Origin: a virus
Length of the DNA stretch: 34,311 bases
IMG/VR virus record: IMGVR_UViG_3300042384_000043
Coordinates: 1 to 34,311 of that record
Reading direction: 5' to 3' (one strand)
This document shows, piece by piece, positions 5,201 to 34,232 of this stretch. The position numbers and the translations under genes are program-made. The notes beneath the pieces are model-generated. The model saw nothing but the letters and a program-made list of their open reading frames with translations, was not told where the DNA came from and made no database searches. How positions within the stretch are numbered: the first letter of the stretch is position 1; each line of letters opens with the position of its first letter.

Positions 5201-6432
5201 TAGAACGTACCCCCAGCAATACCTGTTGAGAACGTACCTGATCCAGTAACTGTCACGCCAGTTGCGGTTGCTTTAAACCTTTGCGTACCAAGCACTGAAA
5301 CACCAAACTCACCTGCCGCGGGTCGATACACGCCAGTGTTTGTTTCCGCCGCAAAGTTTAGAGAAGGGGTTCCCACCGTGCCATCCAACAAACTCACCGT
5401 AGAGGCGCCAGCTTGGGTGGTGTTGGCGTTAAGAAAGTTGGTTCCGTCGCAGATAAGGGTGGCTTGTTGCCCCGGTGGTATCGTTGCCGTAAACCCCAAC
5501 CCTGTCGTCACCGTAAGGCTAAAACCGTTGTCCGTTGTTTGGTTCGAGATGACGTACAAGTTCACAATAGGTGGGAACGTCACCACCACGTTGCTTGTCA
5601 GATTACCAACGTACTCTTGGATGTTGTTTGCCGCCTCGTTGTTCGTCAGCAGAACAGCTCCACCAGTCACGCTCTTTGTAAGTGAAGTAAACGCAAACTG
5701 TGAACTAACGCCATAACCAACGGTTACGTAGGCAGTTCCTGTACATACAATAAATGCTGACTCTGTTGGGTTAAACGTCTTAGTAGAGTTACCATCTATC
5801 AGCTCAGCACCAGTACAAGAGATCGTGAAGGATCCAGTACCGTTGTTCTTAAACAAAGTAAACCAGTTATTGCCAAGGGTGGCCGCGGCTGGGAGCGTTG
5901 CCACACCAGATCCGCCAGACCACACACGAGTCTGCGCTCTGTCGGTTACCGCAAAGGTAGTTCCTGTAGTAATCGCAGAACTTGGGTGGCTTTGATTAAG
6001 GGTAGCACCGCTGGCAACCAAACCGTACCCAGCTAGGGTAGCGGCGTCAGCTCCAGATGAACCAGCACCAAAAGCAATGACACCCCAAGTACCCTGAGCG
6101 TTTGCGTTGGTAGTGATGTAGATGTACTTGGACTCGCCAGCGGCTACAGACACAATCGTGTTTACGCCTGCGTAGTCTTTGACCGTAAAAGTGTTCGCAC
6201 CAATGTTGCGGATCAGCGCGTCGTTGCCAACCGAGGTTTGATTAGCGGGAGGCATAAACAGGCTCAAGCTACCAGCAGTAGCGGTCACCTGCATGATGCG
6301 GGGGGCAAAGTCGGTGCTTGTCGTGCTGTTGCTAGGCCAGTTTAACTGCGTGTTAGCAGACAGCGTAACCGCACGAAAGCTTACGTCCGTTGGCTGGATT
6401 ACGTCACCAGTGAAGGGGCTTACATAGCTCAT
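5200..6432 (-). CDS. Beta-rich tail protein with fibre-like C-terminus
   Basis: 410 aa, rich in Thr, Ala, Gly, Ser and Val. Residues about 10-130 and 160-330 look like repeated beta domains. The C-terminal 60 residues have Asn-Phe-Ala-Ala-Glu-Thr-Asn-Thr-Gly-Val-Tyr-Arg-Pro-Ala-Ala-Gly, a pattern found at the end of many phage tail and fibre proteins, and finish Gly-Ile-Ala-Gly-Gly-Thr-Phe. It lies between the adaptor and the nozzle gene. A short fibre or tail-accessory protein is likely. Confidence 0.7.
   Translation of the reverse strand: MSYVSPFTGDVIQPTDVSFRAVTLSANTQLNWPSNSTTSTDFAPRIMQVTATAGSLSLFMPPANQTSVGNDALIRNIGANTFTVKDYAGVNTIVSVAAGESKYIYITTNANAQGTWGVIAFGAGSSGADAATLAGYGLVASGATLNQSHPSSAITTGTTFAVTDRAQTRVWSGGSGVATLPAAATLGNNWFTLFKNNGTGSFTISCTGAELIDGNSTKTFNPTESAFIVCTGTAYVTVGYGVSSQFAFTSLTKSVTGGAVLLTNNEAANNIQEYVGNLTSNVVVTFPPIVNLYVISNQTTDNGFSLTVTTGLGFTATIPPGQQATLICDGTNFLNANTTQAGASTVSLLDGTVGTPSLNFAAETNTGVYRPAAGEFGVSVLGTQRFKATATGVTVTGSGTFSTGIAGGTF
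5210..5214 (-). promoter_or_regulatory. Ribosome binding site inside the 410-aa gene end
   Basis: The Gly-Gly codons near the end of the 410-aa gene give a run of G residues nine bases before the ATG at 5200, which shares a base with the stop (TAATG). The spacing is identical to that at 14427-14431. It couples nozzle translation to the 410-aa gene. Confidence 0.55.
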
Positions 6433-7064
6433 GAATCCACCGCTATAGCTTGACGATCAGCCACACGCAACTTGTCCTCAGCCGTCAAAGTATCCATGAT
6501 CAGTTTGTATTGAGCCTGCCACATAGGAATGCGGTCGTCATTCTTAAGGAACGGCATCGCCTGAAGCAAGGAGCCATAAAGCAACGCTTGAGGAGCGTAG
6601 ATGGTGAACCAATTGGTTTGGTTAGAGCTGTCCAAAGGCTGAACACGCTCGTAGTACAGAACCTCAAAAGCGTAGGCTACGTCAGGCGTAGGAGCGATGA
6701 GCCAATTGGAGTAGTCGTAGTCAGCGTAGTAGACAGGAGTGCCTGTCGCAGTCGGAGAAGGCCAATATTCCCTCAGATACTCATACTTGCGAAGCAAAAC
6801 TGGCTGGCGCGCTCCACCAACTGTGATGTTCATAGACACCGTTTTGTGCCAACGAGCTGGCTTGGCTATGGTAGAAGTCCCAATCACCATGTTGCTGGTG
6901 TTGACCGTCAAGTTACCCAAAAACTTGATCTGAGAGGCTATAACCTGCTCAGCCAACATGATAAACAGAGGGATCTTGTCCAGCGTGGCGGTGTCATTAC
7001 GCTCCAAATAGGATTGGATGTTTTCGACCAAGCTGTCATAGGTCATAACACTTGCAGTCGCCAT
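6429..7064 (-). CDS. SU10-type head-tail adaptor
   Basis: 211 aa. The N-terminus Tyr-Asp-Ser-Leu-Val-Glu-Asn-Ile and the helical run to residue 50 (Ile-Pro-Leu-Phe-Ile-Met-Leu-Ala-Glu) match adaptor proteins of SU10-like podoviruses. A beta part with Lys-Pro-Ala-Arg-Trp and Leu-Leu-Arg-Lys-Tyr-Glu-Tyr-Leu follows, then Trp-Leu-Ile-Ala-Pro-Thr-Pro and a C-terminal helix with Trp-Gln-Ala-Gln-Tyr. It would dock under the portal. A GAGGTG site precedes the ATG, and its end overlaps the next start (ATGA). Confidence 0.78.
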   Translation of the reverse strand: MATASVMTYDSLVENIQSYLERNDTATLDKIPLFIMLAEQVIASQIKFLGNLTVNTSNMVIGTSTIAKPARWHKTVSMNITVGGARQPVLLRKYEYLREYWPSPTATGTPVYYADYDYSNWLIAPTPDVAYAFEVLYYERVQPLDSSNQTNWFTIYAPQALLYGSLLQAMPFLKNDDRIPMWQAQYKLIMDTLTAEDKLRVADRQAIAVDS

Positions 7065-16820: not shown

Positions 16821-17335
16821 TAGTGAGTTCTCCCTTGCGCGGCAAGAGTAGCACTGCGAGAGGCAACACGTTTGGCAATCTGCTCTGGCGTTTGCTTGCG
16901 ACCTTTGCCAGCTTTGCCGCCCTTGCTAAAGAAGTTTTCAGGCATAGGCTTTAGTTTGCCAACCAGCCATGGTGTTGGGCGTGGTATGCCCTTCAGTGGG
17001 CTGACATAGTCTTCGCCACGAGGCTTGCTCATTGGGGGCTTAAAACCACCAACAGCAATGTTCCAGCCAATCAATTGTTCAGGGCGAAGCTTGCTTTCAA
17101 TGTCGTAGCAGTATTCAAGGTCTGAAACCAACACAACCTCTTTAATTAGAGTGTCCCAGCCGTATTTGTTGATTGCGTTTGACAAGATTGCATTGTCATG
17201 TCGCTTGTTCTTATGAGCCCACTTGTGACCGTAATTCCAACGCTTATCTGCGTCTTTGGACACGCCAACATAACCCTCAGTTAACATATCACTGTGGTGT
17301 GGTGCGCGGATCCAATAGACGGAGCAAACGGTCAT
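16820..17335 (-). CDS. GIY-YIG homing endonuclease, free-standing
   Basis: 171 aa. GIY-YIG enzymes cut DNA at a specific site and spread their own gene. The degenerate signature is Val-Tyr-Trp-Ile (6-9) and Gly-Tyr-Val-Gly (21-24), followed by Arg32, His37, an Asn-rich helix, the metal-binding Glu80 in Tyr-Asp-Ile-Glu, and Asn92 in Gly-Trp-Asn-Ile. The C-terminal Thr-Pro-Glu-Gln-Ile-Ala-Lys-Arg (149-156) looks like a NUMOD-type DNA-binding motif. The ATG overlaps the adaptor stop (ATGA), so it rides on late transcription. No intron boundary is visible around it, so it acts as an intergenic mobile gene. Confidence 0.82.
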   Translation of the reverse strand: MTVCSVYWIRAPHHSDMLTEGYVGVSKDADKRWNYGHKWAHKNKRHDNAILSNAINKYGWDTLIKEVVLVSDLEYCYDIESKLRPEQLIGWNIAVGGFKPPMSKPRGEDYVSPLKGIPRPTPWLVGKLKPMPENFFSKGGKAGKGRKQTPEQIAKRVASRSATLAAQGRTH

Positions 17336-18402
17336 CGTGTGTAAACTCCTATGTTGGGTGCCAAATAGATCGGACTACGATCACGCTCTTCCTGCTCCAC
17401 TTGGTTCAGGTACTTCTCGGCTTGACCTTCAAGGTATTGGATGCGCGCCATGTCAACGCCCGGCAACTCGAGCGCCATCCTATGCGACAACATCATCAAC
17501 GTCGCCTCATACCATCGAGTTGGGATGTACAGCTCGTTTGTCAGCGAGCCAACGTCCATGATCTGTTTGCTGTACCACACGGTAATTTGTACAAACGGAT
17601 CACTGGGGACGGGCCACAAGTACAGCGATGGCAAGGGAATAGTGCGATCAAACCAGAATTGGAAGGGTTGGTTTGATGTGAAGTTCTTGTTTGGCAGGTT
17701 CGTGTAGTCATCGCGATTCAGGCGGGACATAGTGATCTCAGTGGAATTATTTCCAACGTAGAACTCACGCAAAGCCAAGGTAGTCCCACCAGAGGCGCGA
17801 ACGCGGTAGTACTGCACGGCTTGACCGGGGTTTATGTCCGTCCAGATCCACTGGTTGTCCGTCACAGCCACGGCGCCAAGGTTTTGGAGGGTAGTCCACG
17901 TACTGTTATCTGTTGAGTACTCAAGGGTCAACGTCCATGTAGCGCTTCCACCACCTGCTATGTACGGCAGGATACCGATGGAGCCAGCATAAATGTCTTG
18001 GTTTGTCCCAAAGTTAGCTGAAATGTTGCCGTTCGCGCTTGTCTGTTGGCAGAACGTGTCTACGTCGTTATCACCCACGTTGCCAACCGTACCACCCGCA
18101 GAGGATGTGTAGCTCGCGCTAGGGCGGTTCATGGTGCGATAGAGCACGTTTAGAGCGTCGTTTGCACCTGCGGGTAGGGTGTATATGTAATTGTTCGGAG
18201 AAACGCCCAAAACGATCTTATCGATGGCGAAATACTGTATTCCGATGTTGATCAGGTTCTGAAGAAGAAAGCTCAAAGACTGACGAGCGGACACAAGTTG
18301 CTCAGAGGTCAACTCTTCGGCTAATTTGCCTGCACGTCTCGCACCATGATCAATCAGGGTTTGTACGTTAACTGTCTGACCGTATGTATCTGAGTACGCC
18401 AT
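17332..18402 (-). CDS. Head-tail adaptor (gp4-like) with inserted discoidin-like domain
   Basis: 356 aa. Residues 10-60 are helical with the Gly-Ala-Arg-Arg-Ala-Gly-Lys-Leu and Ala-Arg-Gln-Ser-Leu pattern seen in gp4-like adaptor proteins, which bind below the portal and receive the tail. Residues 255-335 hold a second conserved half: Trp-Pro-Val-Pro, a Tyr-Ser-Lys-Gln strand and Thr-Arg-Trp-Tyr-Glu-Ala. Between them, about 94-216, lies a beta-rich segment with Trp-Thr-Leu-Thr-Leu-Glu-Tyr-Ser-Thr-Asp, Trp-Thr-Thr-Leu and Tyr-Tyr-Arg-Val-Arg, typical of F5/8 type C (discoidin) domains. An AAGGAAT site precedes the ATG. Its stop overlaps the homing endonuclease start. Confidence 0.75.
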   Translation of the reverse strand: MAYSDTYGQTVNVQTLIDHGARRAGKLAEELTSEQLVSARQSLSFLLQNLINIGIQYFAIDKIVLGVSPNNYIYTLPAGANDALNVLYRTMNRPSASYTSSAGGTVGNVGDNDVDTFCQQTSANGNISANFGTNQDIYAGSIGILPYIAGGGSATWTLTLEYSTDNSTWTTLQNLGAVAVTDNQWIWTDINPGQAVQYYRVRASGGTTLALREFYVGNNSTEITMSRLNRDDYTNLPNKNFTSNQPFQFWFDRTIPLPSLYLWPVPSDPFVQITVWYSKQIMDVGSLTNELYIPTRWYEATLMMLSHRMALELPGVDMARIQYLEGQAEKYLNQVEQEERDRSPIYLAPNIGVYTR

Positions 18403-19772: not shown

Positions 19773-20852
19773 TCAGCACTTTACTGATCCACCACGTTTC
19801 TTTGCAGGGGTGACAGTCACGGACTTCTCAGTCTTGGTGACAGATCCGTTTGCCTTTTTAGCGATGTCTCGCTCTTTATCGGTAACGGAACCCATGCCAG
19901 AGAACAAGCTCTTAGCACCCTCATATAGCTTGCTAGGAATGTTACGGATGGCTTTTGCCATGTCCATTTCACTCTCAGATGGGCCAATCGATTTGTCGTA
20001 AGCGCCTTTGGATAGGTCAGTTACTTTTCCGCCATCTTGATACTTCAGGTTGCTCTGGGCTTTCGCTTGCTTCATCGCTGTTGCGTTCTCAGCCTTGAAG
20101 GCAGATTGCTCTTTCTTCTGGGCTGGGGTCACACTGCCACCCTTTTTAAAGGTGCCTGATTGACGATCATTGCTGACAGGAGCAGATGGTTTCTTAGCTG
20201 GGTATGCTACGGCGCGACCGCTGTCGTTAACAGCTCCCCCCGTAGCGAAGTGCTTTTTTGTTGCACCGCCTTTTTTGTAACCACCGCCGTTACCTAACTT
20301 GACATCACCTGTGGGGGCGCTGTTGTTGTCAGGATGAGCTGTGACCATCTTGGTGTTGCGATATGCACCGCCTTGACCTTCGGTGTTGATGATGCCATCT
20401 TTAGCAATAGCGCCACCCTTTTTGTAACCACCTTGACCATTGACCACGCCACCTGTGGCGTAACCGCCGGGCTTCGTAGACTTGGCAATGCCACCAGTAG
20501 CAAGACCTTTGTGACCCTTGCTTGCAGGCTTAGACTCGTGAGACTTCAGTTCTTTTTCAAGACCCTTCATCTTCGACATCTCAGCCTTGTGCGTAGCCTT
20601 GGACTCGCCGCCGTCTTTCATTCCGCTTGGCATACCCTTCATCCCAGCCATAGCCGCACGACGTGCCGCCATAGAAGGACGCTTAGGACGAGCAACGGGC
20701 ATCATGCCACCGCGAGCAGGCATAGCAGACATCGCAGATGGCATAGCCATCATTCCGCCGTCAGCCTTTTTCACGGATCCGCCTTTTTTGAGCTTTAACT
20801 CAACTGTAGGCTCAGTGGTCATCATTTTGACCATTGGTTTAAATTGACCCAT
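19773..20852 (-). CDS. Glycine-pair repeat protein, Lys/Met-rich, function unknown
   Basis: 359 aa with low complexity and a strongly basic, Met-rich first 100 residues. It carries at least a dozen Gly-Gly pairs in short units of the form aromatic/Leu, Ala or Lys, Thr or Lys, Gly-Gly, small residue. Examples are Leu-Lys-Lys-Gly-Gly-Ser-Val (21-27), Tyr-Ala-Thr-Gly-Gly-Val-Val (131-137), Tyr-Lys-Lys-Gly-Gly-Ala at 143 and 192, and Phe-Ala-Thr-Gly-Gly-Ala-Val (202-208). The C-terminal third is less repetitive and partly helical. The protein is probably disordered and could bind DNA or coat other virion proteins. I do not recognise a characterised relative. A strong terminator hairpin lies five bases after the stop, ending this transcription segment. 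Confidence 0.7.
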   Translation of the reverse strand: MGQFKPMVKMMTTEPTVELKLKKGGSVKKADGGMMAMPSAMSAMPARGGMMPVARPKRPSMAARRAAMAGMKGMPSGMKDGGESKATHKAEMSKMKGLEKELKSHESKPASKGHKGLATGGIAKSTKPGGYATGGVVNGQGGYKKGGAIAKDGIINTEGQGGAYRNTKMVTAHPDNNSAPTGDVKLGNGGGYKKGGATKKHFATGGAVNDSGRAVAYPAKKPSAPVSNDRQSGTFKKGGSVTPAQKKEQSAFKAENATAMKQAKAQSNLKYQDGGKVTDLSKGAYDKSIGPSESEMDMAKAIRNIPSKLYEGAKSLFSGMGSVTDKERDIAKKANGSVTKTEKSVTVTPAKKRGGSVKC

Positions 20853-21358: not shown

Positions 21359-22276
21359 TTAGACGCCAGCAGTGCCGTACATCGCACGAGGATCAGTGAA
21401 GCCCACGTCGTAACGCTCTGTCGCTTTGTAGCGCATAGAGTCAGTTTCGAAGTCGCCTTCCATGGTCTTCTCGAGCTTACGACGCATCATGAGCTTCATG
21501 CCTTCTGGAGCGTCGGTTTGTACGAAGAATGCTGAAGCATTGGTCAAACGTGACAACACAGCCGCGCCTTCGTCCAACAGACCGATGGACTTGACAGGGT
21601 TGATGTCGTTGTTTGCATTACCTGCGCGCAACACGGATTTCAAGAGGACTTCAGCTTGGAAGACGTTGCCGGGGGCGACCACCAATTGGCGGGGCACAAG
21701 GCGAATCTTCTTACCATTGTTGTCCACAGCTTGACGAATCTGAATCAACATCTGCTCAAGCGATGTCTGTGACAGATTGGCGGCTGTAGCCAATTGGTTG
21801 CTGAATGTACCGCTGACGATAGGGTGCGATGTGCTGATCAAAGCAACGCCGTCGCCACCTGCTGTAGCACCGCCAGTGAAGGCGTTGTTCAACACGTTAG
21901 CAGACAAAGTCTCTTTGGTCTCAATCAATGACTGAGCCAAGTGACGTGCGTACACCTGACCGATACGGATGTGGTCACCGTCTTCAACCAAAACTTTGGT
22001 CAAAGCAAATGCCAAGCCGTACACAGAGTACACATAGCGTTTCAAGAACAGAACACCACCCTGTTGGTACGACACTGGTGTGCCGTCAGGCAACTGAGGT
22101 GCCGCGCCGAAACCGTACAAGACGGGTTCTTCGTGGTAGTTACGTGGAATGCCGTCTTGTTCCGTGAAAACACGAGACCATTCATCGGCACGTTGGTCGT
22201 AGACACCGTCGAAACATTCATTCAAGATAGGTTCGACGATGCTACGAAAGTCGGTACTGCGCATTGGAGCGGCCAT
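21359..22276 (-). CDS. Major capsid protein (HK97-fold expected)
   Basis: 305 aa. It forms the shell of the head. Residues 8-45 form an N-terminal arm and 85-130 a long helix with Ala-Leu-Thr-Lys-Val-Leu-Val-Glu and Leu-Ile-Glu-Thr-Lys-Glu. Then come a Gly-rich loop (133-142), a Ser-His-Pro turn, and a strand with Leu-Val-Val-Ala-Pro-Gly near 195-201. The C-terminal Arg-Tyr-Lys-Ala-Thr-Glu-Arg and Asp-Pro-Arg-Ala are typical of capsid proteins related to the Mu gpT-like group. A consensus AGGAGG site lies ahead of the ATG. No prohead protease gene is seen in the window, so maturation cleavage may be absent. A GC-rich hairpin follows the stop. Confidence 0.88.
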   Translation of the reverse strand: MAAPMRSTDFRSIVEPILNECFDGVYDQRADEWSRVFTEQDGIPRNYHEEPVLYGFGAAPQLPDGTPVSYQQGGVLFLKRYVYSVYGLAFALTKVLVEDGDHIRIGQVYARHLAQSLIETKETLSANVLNNAFTGGATAGGDGVALISTSHPIVSGTFSNQLATAANLSQTSLEQMLIQIRQAVDNNGKKIRLVPRQLVVAPGNVFQAEVLLKSVLRAGNANNDINPVKSIGLLDEGAAVLSRLTNASAFFVQTDAPEGMKLMMRRKLEKTMEGDFETDSMRYKATERYDVGFTDPRAMYGTAGV

Positions 22277-23448: not shown

Positions 23449-24396
23449 TTAGTAAGAGTTGTTTCGAGCTTCTTGCGCATATCGCTTAATCATCTTGGAT
23501 CGCTTATCGGGATCATCCCAAAAGCCTGCATCCTTCATGGCGCGCACTTGTTCTGGTTTCAAAACAAATGTGTTCCTGTTGGTGCTTCCGTTGACGCTTT
23601 CGCGACCAGAACTTGTTACAACACTCCTTGGTCTCTTAGTAGACGAACGTACGTCCGTGCTGTCATTGTACTTGTGTGGCAAGTACTTATGCAAGCGATT
23701 GTCAAGTTCTTCCCAATAATCTTGGCTGGTGGGGTTCCAGCCTTCGGCTACTAGGGTCTCGTCAATCTGCTTTGCAATCTTGGAATCGGTATCCCGACCG
23801 CTTGGGTCGTACCAATCATTCTTCTCCATCCAGTTCGCCGCCAAGCGTTGCAGGCGTGGATCTGGGACGTTTCCTTGGGTCTGACGTGGCTCAACAGCAG
23901 ACTTCTTGAAGGATGACAGCGACTCAATCTGACGACGAGCTTCGTACATCATCTCCTGAGCGTCGGTCATAGCGGCACCGTCAGCGGCGGTTGCCGCCTC
24001 AGCGATCTTCATCTTCGCGTACTGCAAGCGAAGTTCTTGGTCTTCAATAGCCTTGTCAATACGAGCTAGGTCAGCAGAGTGCGTTTTGCGCTCCACCACG
24101 GACAAACGCTCCATCAACTCTTGGTTCTTGCGTTCCAATAGCTGGAGTTTCATGTCCTTCTCTACGCCAGTCTTCTTGGCTAGATCCCGCTTGGCGCGTC
24201 TTTTCTCACGACGAGCACGTTGGTACTCCGTCTCGTCTTCAGGGGCTACATCGTCGTCTATAGCGCCTCCAGACGCCATGTCGCGGTCGTCGTCTTGCTC
24301 GTCAGGGGACTCAATGCTGTCAGGAAGGTCGATAACGGCTGAACCGTCCGCCTCTTCCGTGACTTTGATCTTGTCAAGTTCGTTTTCTGTGGTCAT
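23449..24396 (-). CDS. Capsid scaffolding-like protein
   Basis: 315 aa and highly charged. The N-terminal 60 residues are acidic. Residues about 58-165 are helix- and coiled-coil-prone with many Glu, Lys and Arg. A Trp-rich segment at 189-225 (Trp-Met-Glu-Lys-Asn-Asp-Trp-Tyr) resembles the conserved patch in head assembly proteins of podovirus-like phages. The C-terminal 40 residues are basic and helical, as in P22-type scaffolds where that end binds the coat. Its place between the portal and capsid genes supports the call, but scaffolds diverge strongly and the evidence is composition and position. Confidence 0.7.
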   Translation of the reverse strand: MTTENELDKIKVTEEADGSAVIDLPDSIESPDEQDDDRDMASGGAIDDDVAPEDETEYQRARREKRRAKRDLAKKTGVEKDMKLQLLERKNQELMERLSVVERKTHSADLARIDKAIEDQELRLQYAKMKIAEAATAADGAAMTDAQEMMYEARRQIESLSSFKKSAVEPRQTQGNVPDPRLQRLAANWMEKNDWYDPSGRDTDSKIAKQIDETLVAEGWNPTSQDYWEELDNRLHKYLPHKYNDSTDVRSSTKRPRSVVTSSGRESVNGSTNRNTFVLKPEQVRAMKDAGFWDDPDKRSKMIKRYAQEARNNSY

Positions 24397-24836
24397 AAGA
24401 ATGCTTTCATAGCTAAGGGATCACCAATGACTTTGGCAATGATTTCGTGGTCGTTCAAGATCATGAACAAGGCTGGATCTTCGTGATCGCTCTCGCCTGT
24501 GACCTTAACTTCCCAACGATCTCCGCCCCATTTAGGGACTCGGATGTAATCGCCAACTTCGCACCACGAGCCTTCAGGCCAGCCTTGCATGGTGTCTCGG
24601 TTTTTAAATGCGAGGGGGCCAACTTCGATGACTTTTGCCACCATGTTGTTCCACTTCTCGCTCTCTTTGGTCTCTTCTACCAAAATGATCCCTGCGCCTG
24701 TCGTTTTCTGCTTTGTGCGACGTAGTTGCACCAAAATTCGACCACCTAATGGCTTAGCACCCGGGCTCACAGCGGGGAATGCCCACTTCACTTCAGCGTT
24801 TTCCAACACTTCGGGGTTATCGCTCATCTTCTTCAT
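24393..24836 (-). CDS. GroES-like co-chaperonin (Cpn10 fold)
   Basis: 147 aa against about 97 for bacterial GroES. The Cpn10 pattern is recognisable. Pro-Leu-Gly-Gly-Arg-Ile-Leu-Val starts the first strand (29-36). A mobile-loop-like Thr-Thr-Gly-Ala-Gly-Ile-Ile-Leu lies at 45-52. Ala-Lys-Val-Ile-Glu-Val-Gly is at 67-73, Glu-Val-Gly-Asp-Tyr-Ile-Arg-Val-Pro at 93-101, and a closing strand with Ile-Ile-Ala-Lys-Val-Ile at 132-137. GroES caps the GroEL chamber; phage versions such as T4 gp31 help fold the major capsid protein. Extra residues sit at the N-terminus, in the loop after residue 76 and at the C-terminus. The start is uncertain: ATG at 24836 or the in-frame ATG at 24827. The stop overlaps the scaffold start (ATGA), which fits a capsid folding role. 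Confidence 0.85.
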   Translation of the reverse strand: MKKMSDNPEVLENAEVKWAFPAVSPGAKPLGGRILVQLRRTKQKTTGAGIILVEETKESEKWNNMVAKVIEVGPLAFKNRDTMQGWPEGSWCEVGDYIRVPKWGGDRWEVKVTGESDHEDPALFMILNDHEIIAKVIGDPLAMKAFL

Positions 24837-25008: not shown

Positions 25009-25163
25009 TATTTCTTCTTAGCTTGCGATAGTGCGCCTCCTTGTTTTTTAGCTGGCGCTGTGTTGCCAGAGGACTTGAGGGACGTGCCATCAAGCTTCTC
25101 GCCAGCGGCAATACGCTTGTGCATAGGCACGGCTTCGTTGTGATAAGGGTTAGATGTAGCCAT
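25008..25163 (-). CDS. Small basic hypothetical protein, 51 aa
   Basis: A short frame whose ATG lies inside the end of the portal gene and whose TAA shares one base with the next ATG (TAATG). The product begins with Met-Ala-Thr-Ser-Asn-Pro-Tyr and ends in a Lys- and Gly-rich tail with Lys-Lys-Gln-Gly-Gly and a final Lys triplet. No domain is recognised. The overlaps on both sides, and the fact that it fills an otherwise empty 140-base gap, support it as real. It could be a small head-associated protein. Confidence 0.6.
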   Translation of the reverse strand: MATSNPYHNEAVPMHKRIAAGEKLDGTSLKSSGNTAPAKKQGGALSQAKKK

Positions 25164-27708
25164 TTTGATCTCCAAGGGTTTGTTGAGCTTCTTTTTGAAG
25201 CGCCAGTGCAGTTTCTGCCTGCTCGTTTTGCAATTTAGCCGCGTCTCGCGTCAGTTTTGCAGATTCAATGCGTTCTTTCGTCAGGTTGTCAGCCGAATTG
25301 GTGGACATCTTGACGCTGTCTTGCTGTTGTTGCTTTGCCATCTCCATTTGCATCCGTGCGGCGCCCTCTTGACCCTCTTGTGTGAGGCGTTTGTCCGCCA
25401 ACTGTATGTCGGCTTGGTCTTTCGCGGCACGGCGCTGGGTCTCTGCCATGCTTGTCTGCATGAGAACCTGTGCTTCGGGTGGTAAGGGTTGCTGTTGCTT
25501 GCCCTGTTGCATCATTTGGATCATCTGCTGGATGATAGGCATGACGCCCTTGAACGCTTTCTCGCTGTCCATGGCGACGTGCTGAGACGCCAAGGCGTAT
25601 ATCTTGTCAATTTCGGCTGTGTACTTGGGATTAGCGTAGTCAGCTTGTTGTTTACCAGTTGACTTGGTCACATAACCGTTCATGCGCTTCAAGTACCACA
25701 AGGTAATGTGTTGTTTGACGTGCTCCATCATCTGTGGGATGAAGGCTGGCGCGATCATGGGGTTTGCACCAAAGGCTGGATCCTTGGCAAAGTCCAAGTG
25801 ACCCTGAATGTGAGCCAAGTGGTCTTGATCGATGAAGGCAAAACCTGTCTGACCAAGAGCCATAGCGACGTTTTCGTCTGCGACTGGGCGCTCTTCGGGG
25901 TTGGGTACGTCTTTCATCAGCTCATTGATGCCGGGCACCTTGATCTGCTTCAAGAACCTCTCCAGCACCACCTTGCGGTTGAACAGATCTGGGTTCTTGT
26001 CCATCAACGCCATCACCGCTTGAGTCTGCGCCATGCGCTGAGTCTCAGAGAAGATGTGCGGATCAGAGACTGGGATCACGTCTGTGTTAGATGCGAAGTC
26101 TTCTTTGCTGATTTCCAGATCTGCAACCACTTCACCCTTGCGTTGCTCGTCGATGTACCAACGATTCAGACGTCCAAGGATCTTCAGAACGCGACCTTGT
26201 GACTCGTGCAGACGTGCGTGGATGGCAGAGAACACCGCGGCTCCCTGCTCGATCAGTGCTTGGGTGGTTCCAACAGGGGTGTTGGAGTTCACGTCAGCGA
26301 TCTTTTCCTCAGCGGTGGTCACGACACCCTTAGCCGCGCTGTCTAACCAGCCCAAAAGCGAGAATAAAACTGGGGAAGGGGGGTTGAAAGGCATAGGCAT
26401 GGCAATCTTGCGGATGTCATCGACCCCGGGCATCCCCTCGATCTCACAAACCTGCGTCACATCCACCTGTTGGGACTGACCAGAGATCTTCGCTCCCTTG
26501 AGCTTTAGCATGGTCGCCGCGTTGTTGATATGAGCAGAGTCCAGCAAAGCGCGCAGAGAGCCTGTAAGAGCCGCTGACAGCCCTCCTATGAGCTGTGGTA
26601 AGCCAATAGCGTAGGCGCCACGCCATGGAATGAACTTGAACTCAACCAACCAATCAAGCTTGGTCATGGTCTCGTCGCCCTCTTCCCAGTTACGGTAGAG
26701 ACCAACGCACTCATTCTCGTGCTCGTCAACCATCAAGATGTATGGAGCTGACTCACCATCTGTCAGTGGGTCGTCATCAAGCTCCAACCATGTGTAAATG
26801 TGGTAAACCTTACGAAGTCCGTCTTCGTTGTCTTCAAACTTACGACCTTCGATCTTGTTGTTTGCCTTCTCAGAGTGAGTTTCCTCTGGCTCAGCAGATA
26901 CGCGGATCAGGTCGATGTCACGGTACAAGCCAGAGCGAATGCGGTTCTTGAACTCCCACTCAGTCAAAGTTTGCATCTCAGTGACGCGCTGGGCTGTGTA
27001 GAAGTTAGCCGCGGCAAAGGGCAACAGAATATTGTCGATTGGCATGAACTCAGCACAGGGACGCTTCTTCTTGTCGTCGTACCAGAGTTTCATGTACTGT
27101 GAGCCACCCAAGGGAAGCTGAGTCAGGAGCTGTTCCTGCTCGTCGCGGAACTCTTCAATCTGCTCAGTCAACTGCCAGTTCATGAAGTCGCGCTTGCGCT
27201 CGGCTTTGCTAATCTTGTCCTCGTCAACCTTGCCCAAGATCTTGGTGCGGGTTGGGCCATCAGGTGGGAACATCTCCTTGATGGCGCGTGAGGCGAAGTC
27301 TACGCAGGCTTCAGCCATGACAGGGTGCACAACCTTGCTGGCGCCCATGAAGGTAGCACCGCCGGGGGCATCATTCCCCATACCCGTACGGCGTAAACCC
27401 TCTTCGTACTTCTTATCGCGCTCCTCACGAGACTTCTTGTCGTTCTCGACCAAGTCCATGTAGCGCAGAGCGATCTTGTTCAAGTCATAGGGGTCAAGCA
27501 CCTCAGCCAAGTTCTGATAGAAGTCCTCGTCCTCCATCGGGCCTTTGGTTGGCATACGCACAATGGCAGACCCATCAGGTAGCTCCTCGATCTCTTGGTC
27601 GTCGTCAGGCATCTCAAACTCCATGCCTTCGTCAGCTTCTACCTGCTGATCCTTTAACCCATCGATAAAACGACCAGCGTTAGGATCTTGTGGGAATTGT
27701 GTCGCCAT
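25150..27708 (-). CDS. Portal protein (P22-type, head vertex)
   Basis: 852 aa, close to the length of large podovirus portals. The portal dodecamer forms the DNA gate of the capsid and docks the terminase and later the tail adaptor. Recognition rests on the overall pattern: an acidic N-terminus, a segment near 120-150 with Gly-Ala-Ser-Lys-Val-Val-His-Pro then Ala-Ile-Lys-Glu-Met-Phe-Pro-Pro, a core with repeated Trp/Tyr and Pro residues, and a Gln-rich helical C-terminus from about residue 720. That C-terminus would fit a barrel helix like the one known in P22. A ribosome site AAGGAA precedes the ATG. The stop overlaps the next small gene by 14 bases. It sits just ahead of the scaffold and capsid genes, as in related phages. 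Confidence 0.88.
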   Translation of the reverse strand: MATQFPQDPNAGRFIDGLKDQQVEADEGMEFEMPDDDQEIEELPDGSAIVRMPTKGPMEDEDFYQNLAEVLDPYDLNKIALRYMDLVENDKKSREERDKKYEEGLRRTGMGNDAPGGATFMGASKVVHPVMAEACVDFASRAIKEMFPPDGPTRTKILGKVDEDKISKAERKRDFMNWQLTEQIEEFRDEQEQLLTQLPLGGSQYMKLWYDDKKKRPCAEFMPIDNILLPFAAANFYTAQRVTEMQTLTEWEFKNRIRSGLYRDIDLIRVSAEPEETHSEKANNKIEGRKFEDNEDGLRKVYHIYTWLELDDDPLTDGESAPYILMVDEHENECVGLYRNWEEGDETMTKLDWLVEFKFIPWRGAYAIGLPQLIGGLSAALTGSLRALLDSAHINNAATMLKLKGAKISGQSQQVDVTQVCEIEGMPGVDDIRKIAMPMPFNPPSPVLFSLLGWLDSAAKGVVTTAEEKIADVNSNTPVGTTQALIEQGAAVFSAIHARLHESQGRVLKILGRLNRWYIDEQRKGEVVADLEISKEDFASNTDVIPVSDPHIFSETQRMAQTQAVMALMDKNPDLFNRKVVLERFLKQIKVPGINELMKDVPNPEERPVADENVAMALGQTGFAFIDQDHLAHIQGHLDFAKDPAFGANPMIAPAFIPQMMEHVKQHITLWYLKRMNGYVTKSTGKQQADYANPKYTAEIDKIYALASQHVAMDSEKAFKGVMPIIQQMIQMMQQGKQQQPLPPEAQVLMQTSMAETQRRAAKDQADIQLADKRLTQEGQEGAARMQMEMAKQQQQDSVKMSTNSADNLTKERIESAKLTRDAAKLQNEQAETALALQKEAQQTLGDQNGYI

Positions 27709-27711
27709 AGC

Positions 27712-30492
27712 TTATTTCCTTTTGAGCTTCTTGTTGCTCAGTTCCATGAACATAGTATCGCGGTTCTCGGTCATTCTAACCTTACCGCTTTTTGTGTCTT
27801 TAACTTTAGGTTTAACTACCCCGCCTTTTGCGTAGACATCAGGCAGAATGATTGGTGGACGACCACCGAGCATAGGCTCGGATTGTGGCAACACCAAACC
27901 ACCAGACAACTCTAATTCTTTTTTCATTGCCTCAATGAATTCTTCTTGAGAGCGCCGTGGCAATCCCTCACGCAGATCCATTGTTGGGGTTATACCAACC
28001 AAGTTACGCTTCTCACCTTTGCCAGCCAACGCTCTACTGCGGTGGCGACCTTCATGACCTGAAATGTAGGGGAGTAGTGGCAGACCAACTTCTTCTTTTG
28101 CCAAGTTAAGGTAAGGAACGCTATCAAACATAGCAATTCGCTCAAGGTGTTTGACATACTCATTTGTTGGTACGGTGTACTTAGTAATTTCACCTTGCTT
28201 GGCTGACTCCGCCGCTTTGGGGCCAACGCTAGTCTTGCCTTGCAACTCAGACGCAAACTTCTCAAAGTCCGCTGGACTCATGGTCATCAAGGCTTTTGCA
28301 TTGTCGCCAAGGAACCGCTCTTTGAGCGCATCTAGGGTGTACAGGTTCTCAAGGTTTGGCACTTCGTCAGACGCACGTTCTACTCGCCTTGCGCCGTATC
28401 CACCCTTCTCTTGCTGGACAATCTTCTTCAGCTCTGTCAATGTGCTGGGCTTAATGATCATTGGGGCTTTAGCCGCCATACGCTCAATCTCTGCCTTGAT
28501 CTCAGCGTTGGTCAGTGAGTTAGGGACAACGTCGGCAAGGTATCTGTTCTGATCCCTAGCGATTAAAGCTTTAACAGCCTCAGCTCTGGGCGCCATTTCT
28601 TCCTTCATCTTTTTCATCTTGGCAAGAGCCGCCATCTTGGCAATTGATCCGCCCTTGCTGTATTCAGGCTCTTCTTGTGGCTCAAGCATCTGGGATGCCG
28701 CGCCAGCGCCAGCAGTTGGGATGCCAACCTGTTGGTACAGGGGTAAGCCCTTCTGCTTGATGGACTCACGCATCTCTGGTGTGATGGGGAAGTTGTGAAG
28801 TTTAATCTGGTTGACCGTATCCAGCTTTTGAAGTTCTTGTGCGATGCGTCGTTCAGAGTCCGCCCTCAGCATTCTGCCAACCAGATCGTTTTCACCCGTT
28901 TCTGGATTGCGCCTAAACAGCTCCACCATGCCATCAAATGGCTCACTTAAATCTTGGCTGGTCATAAATGGGTGATCACCTTGACCACCGCCCCAAGATG
29001 TGCTCTTGGGGTCTCTGGTAGATACAGGAACACTGTTCATCTGAACCTGAGCGCCGTAGGACTTGCCGTAGTTGTTTAGGTAGTCTGGAAGCATCTTGTC
29101 GTAGAAGCCCATCATGCCTTCACCACCGACTTGCAGGTCAACACCTCGCAAAGCAAGATTGCCAGAGTCATCAGGAGAAGCTTCAAGAATCTTCTGAGCC
29201 CCTTCTTTACCAATGTAGTCGGGTAAAGTTTCCTTGGTCACGCCTTGTTGAGCAACCACCATTTTGCCTTGTGGGTCACGACCAGACAGATAACCAGATG
29301 CAGGATCAAAAACAACTTCGCTTAATTGCTTGCTTAAGTCATAACGCTTAGCCTGCTCCGCGCCGGGCGTTATGGCGATGCTGTCATACCCGTTGTCAGC
29401 GGCGTAGTTCAGCAGGCGCTTCATAGCCAGCTCGTGCCAATTCTTTTTGAATGGGGCGTCAGGCACACCGTAGTTAATAACATTCTGCATGTTGTCCCTT
29501 TGCTCCTGCAATTGCATGAGTCTGGGTGTAATGCTGTTTGCTTCATCAACTAAGGCTCTGTGTCCTTCACCTCGATAACCTATACGCTCAGCTTCTCTAC
29601 GTAGTTCACCGCGCTTGTTAACTAAATCTTTAAATTCTTTTTCTAGCGCATTGCTTTGCTCTACATAATCAGCGGGTTTGTATCCCTTCTTGCGCCCAGA
29701 TTGATGCCAATCAGACTGAATCTCTTCAACGTGCAGGATCTTTTCACCATTGGGGCCTATGCGGTCTTGAACGCGCATGTGGGCTAGGACGTTTGGGTCT
29801 TCTTTCCAATGATTGGAGCGATACATGGCGCGATCTTCTGCAAGCGCGCCGCTCTCTCCATATAGATTTTTGTATTCACGCTTCACAGCCAAGCGCATTT
29901 TTGCCATTGCAGATGTGTCACCTGTCAAGCTTGTATATGGCACTCCATGCAAAGTCATAGAGATCTCGTTTAACCTTTTAGCGTCGTCTCCTTGTACTGG
30001 CAACTTAAGAAGGATCTCTCGGTAGTTCTCACCATCTGGCGTCCTGTACCTTCCATACTGAGTGCCGCTATCGGCTTCCATACGTTTGTAAACCTCATCC
30101 GAGACCTGACGATGCCGAGCACCACTGAAGCCAATATCGCTGTATGGCACACCAAACATCTCTTGAGAAACCATCTCTCGAAGGTCGTCTTCATCTATAG
30201 CGGATGCCTCGTCGTAAATCTTCTCTTTGACTTGAGGTGGAGGGTTATCAGCTAGGACTTGCTGTGCCTCTTCCTTGGTCATCTTGCCCTTGGCTTTGAA
30301 TGCCTGCTCAAGCTTACGGTCAGCAATCTCCGCCTTCTTGACGCCCGGCTGTTTAAGCACCTCAGTCAGGAACTCAATCCCTGTGCCTTTGGGTCGCTTT
30401 AGGTTAGCCAGTGCCTCGTCCACAGCAGAGTAAAAGGGCGCTGTCTTTTTAGCGGCTTTAGCGCCTAACCCACCTAATTTGACAAGGCTCAT
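27712..30492 (-). CDS. Large polyvalent-type phage protein (LPD-like)
   Basis: A 926-aa protein whose ATG overlaps the stop of the 1247-aa gene (ATGA). The N-terminus has Lys-Gly-Thr-Gly (35-38) and an Asp-Arg-Lys-Leu segment. The centre has a Glu-Glu-Ile-Gln-Ser-Asp-Trp-His motif at 256-263 followed by a Lys-Lys-Gly-Tyr turn. At about 346-382 is a block with Ala-Pro-Phe, Trp-His-Glu-Leu, Lys-Arg, Ala-Ala and Gly-Tyr-Asp. I know this combination from large polyvalent phage proteins, where function is unassigned. Near the C-terminus is Gly-His-Glu-Gly-Arg-His-Arg (812-818), vaguely like ParB or sulfiredoxin-type nucleotide-binding turns. It ends with a Gly-Gly-Val-Val and an Asn-Arg-Asp-Thr-Met motif shared with the upstream protein. 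A packaged or ejected protein is an inference from position. Confidence 0.78.
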   Translation of the reverse strand: MSLVKLGGLGAKAAKKTAPFYSAVDEALANLKRPKGTGIEFLTEVLKQPGVKKAEIADRKLEQAFKAKGKMTKEEAQQVLADNPPPQVKEKIYDEASAIDEDDLREMVSQEMFGVPYSDIGFSGARHRQVSDEVYKRMEADSGTQYGRYRTPDGENYREILLKLPVQGDDAKRLNEISMTLHGVPYTSLTGDTSAMAKMRLAVKREYKNLYGESGALAEDRAMYRSNHWKEDPNVLAHMRVQDRIGPNGEKILHVEEIQSDWHQSGRKKGYKPADYVEQSNALEKEFKDLVNKRGELRREAERIGYRGEGHRALVDEANSITPRLMQLQEQRDNMQNVINYGVPDAPFKKNWHELAMKRLLNYAADNGYDSIAITPGAEQAKRYDLSKQLSEVVFDPASGYLSGRDPQGKMVVAQQGVTKETLPDYIGKEGAQKILEASPDDSGNLALRGVDLQVGGEGMMGFYDKMLPDYLNNYGKSYGAQVQMNSVPVSTRDPKSTSWGGGQGDHPFMTSQDLSEPFDGMVELFRRNPETGENDLVGRMLRADSERRIAQELQKLDTVNQIKLHNFPITPEMRESIKQKGLPLYQQVGIPTAGAGAASQMLEPQEEPEYSKGGSIAKMAALAKMKKMKEEMAPRAEAVKALIARDQNRYLADVVPNSLTNAEIKAEIERMAAKAPMIIKPSTLTELKKIVQQEKGGYGARRVERASDEVPNLENLYTLDALKERFLGDNAKALMTMSPADFEKFASELQGKTSVGPKAAESAKQGEITKYTVPTNEYVKHLERIAMFDSVPYLNLAKEEVGLPLLPYISGHEGRHRSRALAGKGEKRNLVGITPTMDLREGLPRRSQEEFIEAMKKELELSGGLVLPQSEPMLGGRPPIILPDVYAKGGVVKPKVKDTKSGKVRMTENRDTMFMELSNKKLKRK

Positions 30493-33400
30493 AGTGGTCT
30501 CTCTTCAAGGATTAGATCGTCGCCAGATACTTCACCACCTTCGGCTTTATGGACAGCTCCGCCCTCCTTGAGTCCGAGCTTCTGCAACTCGGTCAGGATG
30601 TCTTCGGTGATCAACTGTGTGGGTGGGTTACCTCGGGCGTAGTCCATGTAGCCGGGCATCCGCTTCTTCTCGCGCATAGTCTTATCAACAAAGTCCTTCA
30701 TGACAAGGTTGCGCTCCACTGGGGTAAACGTCAGACCCAAGTCCTCACCTTGCAAGATTGCGGGGAAGGCTGGGTGTAAGTCAGGGCGATCAATGATCCC
30801 GCCGCTAAGTGTAAACAAACGATTACCCAATGCACCAGTAGGTTGATCTATCAAGGCTGGATCTGTCGTACTGCGAATGATCTTGTCATAGTCAATGATC
30901 TGACCCTTCTTGCCGCCAACCTGAACACCGCCCATCAAATGACCAGCAATCGAGCGACGACTGAACGTGTCAGCTATATCTCTAAACTTTTTGTCCATGA
31001 TGTCAACGTCGGCAGGGAACACTGGGTTGCCCTTCTTGTCAACAGCCGAGGCTAAACGCATGTTGATGAGGTCGCGCAGTTCAGGCGTCAGCTCACCACG
31101 CTTAGCGGCTTTCTTGAAGTCACCGTAAAGTTTGTCAAACACCATCTGGTTTGATTGGTGCTGGGTAGGCGTACCGATCATAGCGGCGTAAACAGCGTTG
31201 TCACCCTTCTTACCGCCACCAAGGATGGTCTTAGCTGTGCCTGCGTTCTGAACGCCCCATGCCGCCTCAGCCTCACGGTATCTAGGGTCTGTAAGTTGGA
31301 GTCCCGAGAAGCCGGGGCCTCCCAAGTAACCCTCACCAACCTTTGTGCGATCAGACTGCGTGATCTTCAGTGGTCGACCTTCAATCTTGCCTAGCGCCTC
31401 AGACGCTTTCATAGGCGTGACGTTCTTAACGCTTGCACCAACAGGCAATCCTTTGGTCAAGGGGCCAATCAGTGGGTAGGCTTGTGCGGCTATACCTAAT
31501 CCAAAAGCAGGCTCAGCCACGTCTTTGATTGCTTGGTAGTCAGGATGCAGGACACTAAAACCCATCTCATCTGGGCGTTCACCCATTAAGCCAGCCATAA
31601 CGGCATAGGTTTTAGGATCTCTCAGTGTGTTCACATTACCTTGCTCAGCGCGTTTCTTAGCGGCGGCGTACTTCTTAGTACCAGCACCGCCGAAATAAGG
31701 CTTGGTGTCGTCCTCAGAACCACCTTCCTTCATGCGCTTGTTGCCTAGCTCTAGCATCATGGTGTCTGGGTTGTTGGAGATGACCACACCGCCACGCTTC
31801 ATGCCCCCAAGATCTGGTGGTACGTCAGGCTTAGGTGGGTTCTCGGCTTGGTATTGCTTGCGCAGGATGTCTTCCCATTCACTGCGGTTGAGGTACTTCT
31901 GCCCTTCTGGAAACAAACCTGCTTGCTGGGCACGGGTAAGCAGGTCAGAGCGCTTAACTGGTAGGTCTTTAAGGTCTTCAGCCATAGGCAAATACATGCC
32001 CAGTTCATTGGGGTCAGCTTTGTATAAACCAGTGTTTACAAAATCTCCAAGGATGTCCCAGTTACCGCTTCTCACAAAATCCTGTGTGTAAGGATCGTAC
32101 TTCTCAATCGGACGAGCGTTTTGCTTACCTTTAACTTGGTAAATTGCAGGTGGTAACGCTTCTCGGGCGGCAAGATATTCTGGGCCTTCGTATATGTCGT
32201 GATTTTTGTCTTGTATTCTTCTTTGGGCAATTCTGTTTTGAACTTCTTCTGGTTGTTTATTAAACCAAGTGTTGTAATCCAAATGCTGTTGCGGTTTTAC
32301 TTCGACCGTTACATGAGGCTCGCCACGTCTGTCGCGCAAGCTAAAGATTCTGCTTCTTCCAGCAACTACGTCAGGACAGTAACCACCAACGCAGTGACCC
32401 ATAGTGTCGCCTTCGTACCTGAGAGCTTTTTCTAAACGCTTGTCGTGGTTTTTGTTGAAAAAAGATATTGCTTCATCTGGAGTGTCAAAGTCCATGCGAG
32501 ACAGTGACTCCCCGTTTGGATCAACGACTTGATAAGTTTGTCTAGCCTCATCTTGCACAACCTTATATCCAGAAGGCAAGTCCTTTGGCGTGGTCAGTTC
32601 AATCCATTTATACCCCGCTGGGTATTCCTTGTAAGTAGGGAAGCCTTCAGTGTTTTTGATGGCAGTCTGGCGCATCTTGACACCCGCCTCACGATCAAAG
32701 TTGGCGGCGCGCTCAATAGCCTGATCCATTGTGATTTTGCTTAATTGCTCAGGGGTGATAGCACCAGAGCGTACGTCTTGGCGCAGTACGTCTAAAACAT
32801 GATCGATACCTGTATCCTTATTTAAGTCGCTCATCGTTTTGTAGACCATGGCTTCTGGATCAACCTTCTCAAGCCATGGGTAGCGCTCTACGGTTTCAGG
32901 CAATCTTCCTATGCGTCCAGCCTTCTTCATACCAAGCAGGCTGTCTGTCAGGTTTTCCCAGCCCTTGCCAATTGTGGATGTAGCCATTCCTTCAGTTGGA
33001 AAACCCCTGTCCTCACGAACGCTTATTACTCCGTGTGCTGGGTGTCTTGCTTCATTTTCTAAATATCTGATGTGACCAATTGTTTTTTCAGCATTGCCAA
33101 CATCAAAGTTTAAATCTTCAATCTTGTCTTGAATGTCGCGCTCAAGGTAAGCAATCGCTTGGTCTCTCTCCCTGCTTTGTGGTTGAGCCTTAGCATTTGC
33201 CAGCTTTGTTTCCAGTTTGGTAATGTCTTTCTCGTACTTAGCTTCTAGCTTCTCTACGTCTTCTGTGCGACGGTCAAACATCTTGCGCACCCTGTCTTCA
33301 GGTGTCGCCATCTCGTTCTTGACGTAGTTTTTGTATGTGTTCTCAAGCCAATTGTTTAGAGCTGACTCCTGCTTGTTCAGGGCTAAGTCGCCTTGCAATC

Positions 33401-34232
33401 TGCGGATGTTGTCCTGCACCATCTCGTTTTGAAGATTACCACTTCGTAGACGCTCAATCTCACCTTCAAGATAAGCTACATCCTCGTTAGAAAACGGAAC
33501 GCCTCTGTCACTCTTCTTTAAATCTTGAACTGACCTGTTTAAGTTATCGTCAAACCAGTTACCACCCTTGGGCTTGATCACGTTGGACTGCGTGTTAGCG
33601 CCCATCGCCATGACCATCTCACGAGGCAAGCCACCACGCTCTAAGGCGCCCTTCACAACGGGCTCCATGCGACGCTCGATAGCTCTGCCAGCCTGCTCTG
33701 CGCCTCTGCCTGCTGTTTTCATGGCTTGGGACGTGGCAGGGCCTGACAGGTACTGCAACGCAACCGCCTCGGGCAAGATAGGTGGAAGCTTGTACTGTGT
33801 TTCAAGGCGATCAAGGAATTCGCCTACATCACCTGCGTACTCATAAGCCAAGGGTTGCTCAGGCTTGTACATGCGGTCTTCTATGAACTTCTCAGCCGCG
33901 GCATCACCATGCACCATTCTGGTTGGCAGAGAGTTGATGGCTTGCGTCAGGGCTGAACCCATGAGCCGTACTGTCTGTAATGCACCAGCCGCCTTCTCTA
34001 GCGGAGATGTGTCAGCACTTTGCTGGCGCTTTAGGTCAGCATCGCGCTGAGTCATGCGTCTACCTAGCTCTAAGTTAGCCTTGGTAGGCTGGCTCAGATC
34101 TACGTCGCCATACTGAGGCAACTCCATCGCTCTTGGATCATCAATGAACGGCATCGGCTTAGCAGGCTTGAAGTTCTTTGCCTTGATGTTCCCAACTCGT
34201 GGGTAGAACGCTGGTTTGTTTTCGTCAGCCAT
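30489..34232 (-). CDS. Giant polyvalent-type phage protein with PcfJ-like core
   Basis: A 1247-aa protein of unknown role. Visible parts: a charged N-terminus; a long helical, coiled-coil-prone region at about residues 225-400 rich in Glu, Lys and Arg; a segment at about 605-650 with His-Cys-Val-Gly-Gly-Tyr (613-618), then Ile-Phe-Ser and a Val-Thr-Val-Glu strand. This arrangement resembles the core of PcfJ-like proteins. A Gly-Gly-Val-Val plus Asn-Pro-Asp-Thr-Met motif lies at 814-826. A hydrophobic stretch sits near 905-930. A Gly-rich segment around 970-1010 opens a C-terminal domain I do not recognise. The start is the ATG four bases after the upstream stop, with a weak GCGGGA ribosome site. 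Proteins of this size beside the portal are often packaged and ejected, or act as polyvalent proteins; which applies here cannot be seen. Confidence 0.75.
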   Translation of the reverse strand: MADENKPAFYPRVGNIKAKNFKPAKPMPFIDDPRAMELPQYGDVDLSQPTKANLELGRRMTQRDADLKRQQSADTSPLEKAAGALQTVRLMGSALTQAINSLPTRMVHGDAAAEKFIEDRMYKPEQPLAYEYAGDVGEFLDRLETQYKLPPILPEAVALQYLSGPATSQAMKTAGRGAEQAGRAIERRMEPVVKGALERGGLPREMVMAMGANTQSNVIKPKGGNWFDDNLNRSVQDLKKSDRGVPFSNEDVAYLEGEIERLRSGNLQNEMVQDNIRRLQGDLALNKQESALNNWLENTYKNYVKNEMATPEDRVRKMFDRRTEDVEKLEAKYEKDITKLETKLANAKAQPQSRERDQAIAYLERDIQDKIEDLNFDVGNAEKTIGHIRYLENEARHPAHGVISVREDRGFPTEGMATSTIGKGWENLTDSLLGMKKAGRIGRLPETVERYPWLEKVDPEAMVYKTMSDLNKDTGIDHVLDVLRQDVRSGAITPEQLSKITMDQAIERAANFDREAGVKMRQTAIKNTEGFPTYKEYPAGYKWIELTTPKDLPSGYKVVQDEARQTYQVVDPNGESLSRMDFDTPDEAISFFNKNHDKRLEKALRYEGDTMGHCVGGYCPDVVAGRSRIFSLRDRRGEPHVTVEVKPQQHLDYNTWFNKQPEEVQNRIAQRRIQDKNHDIYEGPEYLAAREALPPAIYQVKGKQNARPIEKYDPYTQDFVRSGNWDILGDFVNTGLYKADPNELGMYLPMAEDLKDLPVKRSDLLTRAQQAGLFPEGQKYLNRSEWEDILRKQYQAENPPKPDVPPDLGGMKRGGVVISNNPDTMMLELGNKRMKEGGSEDDTKPYFGGAGTKKYAAAKKRAEQGNVNTLRDPKTYAVMAGLMGERPDEMGFSVLHPDYQAIKDVAEPAFGLGIAAQAYPLIGPLTKGLPVGASVKNVTPMKASEALGKIEGRPLKITQSDRTKVGEGYLGGPGFSGLQLTDPRYREAEAAWGVQNAGTAKTILGGGKKGDNAVYAAMIGTPTQHQSNQMVFDKLYGDFKKAAKRGELTPELRDLINMRLASAVDKKGNPVFPADVDIMDKKFRDIADTFSRRSIAGHLMGGVQVGGKKGQIIDYDKIIRSTTDPALIDQPTGALGNRLFTLSGGIIDRPDLHPAFPAILQGEDLGLTFTPVERNLVMKDFVDKTMREKKRMPGYMDYARGNPPTQLITEDILTELQKLGLKEGGAVHKAEGGEVSGDDLILEERPL

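Follow-up and report, generated by a model that had tools for sequence, protein, structure and literature searches.

A tag of approximately 25 residues, with the consensus [KR]xGGxVxISxNPDTMxxELxxK, is common to two giant proteins, A and B, encoded side by side in an uncultivated virus (IMG/VR record IMGVR_UViG_3300042384_000043; the whole stretch analysed, 34,311 nucleotides, is referred to as the window). It is conserved in their relatives in one particular gene position, between terminase and portal, and it probably serves as a docking or loading (cargo) tag by which polyvalent effector proteins, themselves quick to change, enter the procapsid.

Proteins A and B and the register of the tag

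The first-pass annotation had called A and B as open reading frames of 1247 and 926 residues, and both stand as called. A (30489..34232, minus strand) is a polyvalent protein with a PcfJ-like domain at residues 602-658 (PF14284; 31.9 bits against a curated cut-off of 25, a partial match to profile positions 75-135 of 147). B (27712..30492, minus strand), whose gene adjoins that of A with a 4-base overlap, has no PF14284 match and no domain recognised by Pfam; it comprises a conserved core (about residues 20-590), a variable middle and the tag at its C-terminus. A family annotated as endolysin (phrog_7348, 2564 positions) matches B residues 224-488 (E 5e-14), but the match covers the core domain and not the tag, and "endolysin" is the annotation of a multidomain family, not a description of B. 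As a candidate GNAT acetyltransferase fold, the core had Foldseek matches mostly to acetyltransferases, but with E above 0.1 and low probability, a weak resemblance. The portal gene (852 aa; 25150..27708, minus strand; phrog_1216, E 8e-22) starts 3 bases past the stop of B, and relatives of this portal have 65-98% identity. The same head module includes a GroES-like co-chaperonin (24393..24836, minus strand; PF00166) and the major capsid protein (21359..22276, minus strand; PF25209, PF10124). The GroES-like gene is part of the head module in this phage group, its position being kept from pelagiphage HTVC027P to Caulobacter phage RW. Behind the capsid gene lies a 359-aa protein (19773-20852, minus strand) with dense KKGG/ATGG repeats and no family match, and similar KGG-rich proteins occur in relatives (L277). 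Elsewhere in the window, the SU10 adaptor family matched the genes at 6429-7064 and 17332-18402 (minus strand), the second below cut-off and with an additional, sub-threshold F5/8 type C-like match.

The first copy of the tag (31728..31799, minus strand; A residues 812-835, KRGGVVISNNPDTMMLELGNKRMK) is internal, separating the PcfJ-like half from the C-terminal domain, and reads K812-RGGVVISNNPDTMMLELGNKRM-K835; the second (27715..27792, minus strand; B residues 901-926, KSGKVRMTENRDTMFMELSNKKLKRK) is C-terminal and reads K901-SGKVRMTENRDTMFMELSNKKLKR-K926, both placements being as first proposed. In a BLASTP comparison of A with B, the tag stretch was the only significant match (14/32 identical, E 5e-4; next 0.38), in agreement with the earlier view that the remaining domains are unrelated, and full-length paralogy was thereby rejected. 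The best ungapped 20-mer of the pair scored 54, compared to a mean of 36 (sd 3.7, maximum 58) in 300 shuffles. Judged from these two sequences, the pair by itself is only moderately beyond chance, suggestive and not decisive; it is the relatives that settle the reality of the tag. The register also needed revision: the Asn-x-Asp-Thr-Met part was correctly assigned, but the KGGVV of B (residues 889-893; 27814..27828, minus strand) is a separate KGG element some 12 residues upstream, and the true counterpart of K-R-G-G-V-V in A is K-S-G-K-V-R, directly before NRDTM. GG is present in that register in many relatives (e.g., AKGGRVRMTKNRDTM). An NRDTM in the GroES-like protein of the window was dismissed as a coincidental match.

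The C-terminal tail of A (KEGGAVHKAEGGEVSGDDLILEERPL; 30492..30569, minus strand) is likewise kept in relatives. With the form GGxVxGDDLILEERPL, it is a second short conserved tail on C-terminal domains that otherwise differ, and its layout, GG-x-V/I-...-D-x-h-x-E, recalls that of the main tag. The ribosome-binding site of B probably lies in the last codons of A (DNA GAAGAGAGACCACTATGA).

Conservation and copy number in the terminase-portal slot

Scans of IMG/VR with A and B gave a first set of 96 loci with 112 motif matches, nearly always one internal in a relative of A and one C-terminal in a relative of B, and nearly all relatives of the two proteins keep the tag; the motif is thus real and stronger than had been claimed. 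A degenerate-codon pattern (GGxV-x4-N-x-D-[TA]-M-xx-E) found at least 120 stretches in viral contigs, while the same codons in reversed order found none, and a chance motif was accordingly rejected. Random occurrence in cellular proteins, which would have spoken against the original proposal, was not seen either, the strict pattern having no match in approximately 85,000 bacterial and archaeal genomes. Divergent copies in metagenome-assembled genomes (MAGs) were found only on phage-like contigs beside the same terminase/portal, and the consensus peptide gave no convincing match among named phages or plasmids; the tag bearers are an uncultivated group of aquatic phages. In an ungapped seed of 161 distinct copies, in which the search itself imposed N, D, M and E, the conserved positions were V at -5 (159), G at -7 (145), P at +1 (128), T at +3 (120) and S at -2 (115). 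None of these five was demanded in fetching the first set, although some of the copies came from a pattern that includes GGxV. Seven of the 15 invariant columns of a 688-aa alignment of A fall in the tag, which ranks third in conservation among 675 14-residue windows (flanks 0.15 and 0.03), and past residue 586 of B the only invariant columns are V905, N910, D912, M914 and E917 (34 sequences).

The gene order in relatives is terminase large subunit, slot, portal, GroES, three small head genes and capsid; in Caulobacter phage RW, terminase and portal occur without a giant protein between them. The expectation that the motif would lie near portals was borne out, as every mapped match of the strict pattern falls in slot genes (the window and five relatives with converted coordinates). 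At the DNA level, this pattern matched twice in 7/9 tagged records (window included) and once in 2/9, with none for the control. The slot of tagged clades holds one or two giant proteins and as a rule two tags in all, one after the PcfJ-like half and one near the end. Among 111 slots surveyed, exactly two HMM-level copies were counted in 49 of the 58 two-gene slots, and in 14 one-gene slots both copies reside on one protein; several slots with one HMM-level copy also hold a variant second copy. Exceptions are L090 and L156 with three copies, and L101, L171 and L176 with apparently one. Some of the loci behind these estimates were found by way of A, B or the motif, but the less biased subset fetched through the portal gave the same two-copy rule in tagged clades.

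Domain exchange and linkage to the head module

Ten phages with portals nearly identical to that of the window (about 94-98% where measured) were compared. In this set, the N-side and C-side of A vary independently, with the tag as the boundary: between L206 and L048, the N-side is 89% and the C-side 31% identical (tag 86%), whereas between L001 (the window copy) and L048 the values are 42 and 85% (tag 64%). Over the 22 residues compared, the tags of these phages are 55-100% identical in A and 73-95% in B. In B, the stretch separating the core from the tag has been replaced or is absent. Shortened forms of A (547-606 residues) retain the tag but no longer have the PcfJ-like half. In L058/L219 and L070, the B core (26-528) is followed by a D-T-M tag (about 536) at the junction and then, from about 577, by a domain of approximately 690 residues that is typical of an untagged sister clade; its relatives in L257, L261 and L263 belong to that untagged portal clade.

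Giant proteins of unrelated elements contain the core domain of B as well. Among 46 genome-contig homologues of the B core that could be tested, the tag was present, C-terminally, in 5/5 beside the same terminase or portal and in 0/41 elsewhere (Fisher p 7e-7), and the B-core proteins of four other phages lack it. Since it is found only beside the same terminase or portal, the tag is tied to the head module and not to the activity of the B core. That core (EEIQSDWHQxGRKKGY, APFKKNWHELAMKRLL; about 20-590) is found again in MAGs of many phyla, as part of giant proteins 2000-5000 aa long.

Copies within a genome have variants in common, the forms NPDTM..EL, NLDAMYMAV (NLDAMYMAVNDAKF), SQDAMRMAL and NLDTMRLAL each recurring among the copies of one genome. 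The similarities of copy 1 and copy 2 are correlated across genomes (Mantel r 0.78, 0/2000), and tag similarity is greater within than between genomes (0/2000); common descent alone could produce part of this matching. The tag type follows the portal tree, with D-x-M tags through nearly all of it outside one well-supported clade of 26 portals, which has mostly GG tails such as KKGGLVKKSGLSVLNKAII and otherwise unrelated tails. Slot proteins of this clade (L228-L276) end in GGL or SGLSxL, e.g., RGGLSSIK or KKGGAVQSGLSALQR; these tails, which resemble encapsulin cargo peptides, are possibly an alternative tag. That this sister clade manages without a D-x-M tag speaks against a loading function.

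Proposed docking and its alternatives

AlphaFold placed the tag in low-confidence linkers of both A and B, as an isolated short helix. Fold searches say little because the fragment of A and the tag region were predicted with low confidence; in the Foldseek viral library, matches were mostly to uncharacterised phage proteins, some named polyvalent or ART-PolyVal-like. A strongly amphipathic helix was considered and rejected, the hydrophobic moments (0.08-0.22) being unremarkable. We propose that the tag is a short linear docking motif in flexible linkers of polyvalent proteins from the terminase-portal slot, its first part, GG-x-V-x-I-S, being strand-like and its second, N-x-D-x-M-x-x-E-L, a short helix. 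Bound during head assembly to a part of the procapsid interior (portal, scaffold/core or capsid protein), it would carry A and B into the head; both would later leave with the ejected DNA and act on the host. The domains around the tag could then be freely exchanged, because only the tag would have to be kept. From gene position and established knowledge of T4 internal proteins and polyvalent proteins, we infer that A and B are carried in the virion, with the tag as the cause, a head component as its partner, and ejection to follow. A docking or loading tag is the best explanation of the position, the module exchange, the link to the head module and the matching of variants. The earlier suggestions of a packaging signal or a docking site on a common partner fit the comparative evidence best; that of a processing site was weakened.

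The main rival is self-pairing, in which the tag would pair with another copy, thereby linking A with B or one end of a fused protein with the other. Two copies per slot whatever the gene number, and variants that match within a genome, are what this unlikely arrangement would predict, but it sits poorly with the slots of three or apparently one copy, and alone it leaves without explanation why B-core proteins are tagged only beside the terminase or portal of this group. Cleavage, a DNA element and chaperone or host docking come next. A phage or host protease that cuts at the tag would free the halves of A and trim the end of B, for which a position between domains, at a terminus and in predicted flexible linkers would be suitable. 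We regard this as improbable: proteases of the S78, S49 and ClpP families were found neither in the window nor in ten near-complete or complete relatives (11 records; positive controls detected, that of the S77 search silent), and some 20 conserved residues with a helix exceed typical cleavage signals, which are shorter.

Constraint on the DNA rather than the protein, whether as a homology anchor for domain shuffling or through the 3' end of the B gene hitch-hiking on the portal ribosome-binding site, is very improbable. The tag does mark the exchange boundary of A, the codons of the C-terminal copy are unusually fixed (CGC 28/28, AGC 30/30), and AAAAGGAAA in the last codons of B, before the portal ATG, is probably the ribosome-binding site of the portal gene. 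In the internal copy, however, residues are fixed while the codons for Gly, Pro, Val, Leu and Thr differ (codon identity 0.28-0.48), which indicates selection on the protein there, and different nucleotide versions of the tag encode the same residues. Copy 1, as its codons indicate, is a protein motif, and a DNA element is largely refuted for it; the C-terminal copy may be under both constraints, part of its conservation perhaps reflecting the portal start region given the unusually fixed codons. We give as little credence to a role in the host cell or in folding, e.g., as a host-target motif or a chaperonin-binding loop: although the module has a GroES-like gene (phage GroES loop TTGAGIILVEE), whose mobile loop the GG-hydrophobic segments of the tag presumably recall, the most conserved half, N-x-D-x-M-x-x-E, has no GroES counterpart, and B-core proteins outside this head module lack the tag.

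To our knowledge, the selection of large injected proteins for packaging is understood in detail in only a few phages, chiefly T4, and an internal placement is unlike the terminal targeting signals that we know of. The T4 capsid-targeting sequence (CTS) is a short conserved sequence on highly diverse injected defence and effector proteins, the internal proteins and Alt (PMC3012670, PMC5694885). Like it, the tag is the only conserved part of otherwise diverse proteins, kept while flanking domains are exchanged, and as a docking tag it would work in a similar way. The CTS, however, is N-terminal, 10-20 residues long and cut off by the prohead protease, whereas the tag is internal or C-terminal (812-835 of 1247; 901-926 of 926) and about 25 residues long, in phages in which S78, S49 and ClpP proteases were not found (S77 control silent). 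Encapsulin cargo-loading peptides (PMC7355545) are short, mostly C-terminal and conserved among cargo proteins whose genes neighbour that of an HK97-fold shell; the tag differs in sequence, is longer and also internal, and occurs in phages, with shell binding putative here. The slot proteins, being large, multidomain and mosaic in a late/virion gene context, correspond to the polyvalent proteins of phages and conjugative elements described by Iyer et al. (2017), large multidomain mosaics whose genes adjoin virion genes and for which packaging and injection are predicted; the terms "linker" and "short motif" are absent from the searched text of that article (PMC5512222). In the literature searched, there was no match for NPDTM and nothing joining PcfJ with polyvalent proteins. 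Head-loading tags are a known kind, but that literature yielded no description of this sequence, of its placement both internally and at the C-terminus or of its two-copy rule. With somewhat less than even confidence, we propose an undescribed portable cargo tag in a large group of uncultivated phages, present twice per delivery array (internally and at the C-terminus), apparently uncleaved by known prohead proteases and clade-matched to the head module, with effector domains swapped like cartridges. If so, the tag would let delivered effectors in metagenomic phages be recognised by sequence alone and would provide a testable way to load foreign proteins into phage heads.
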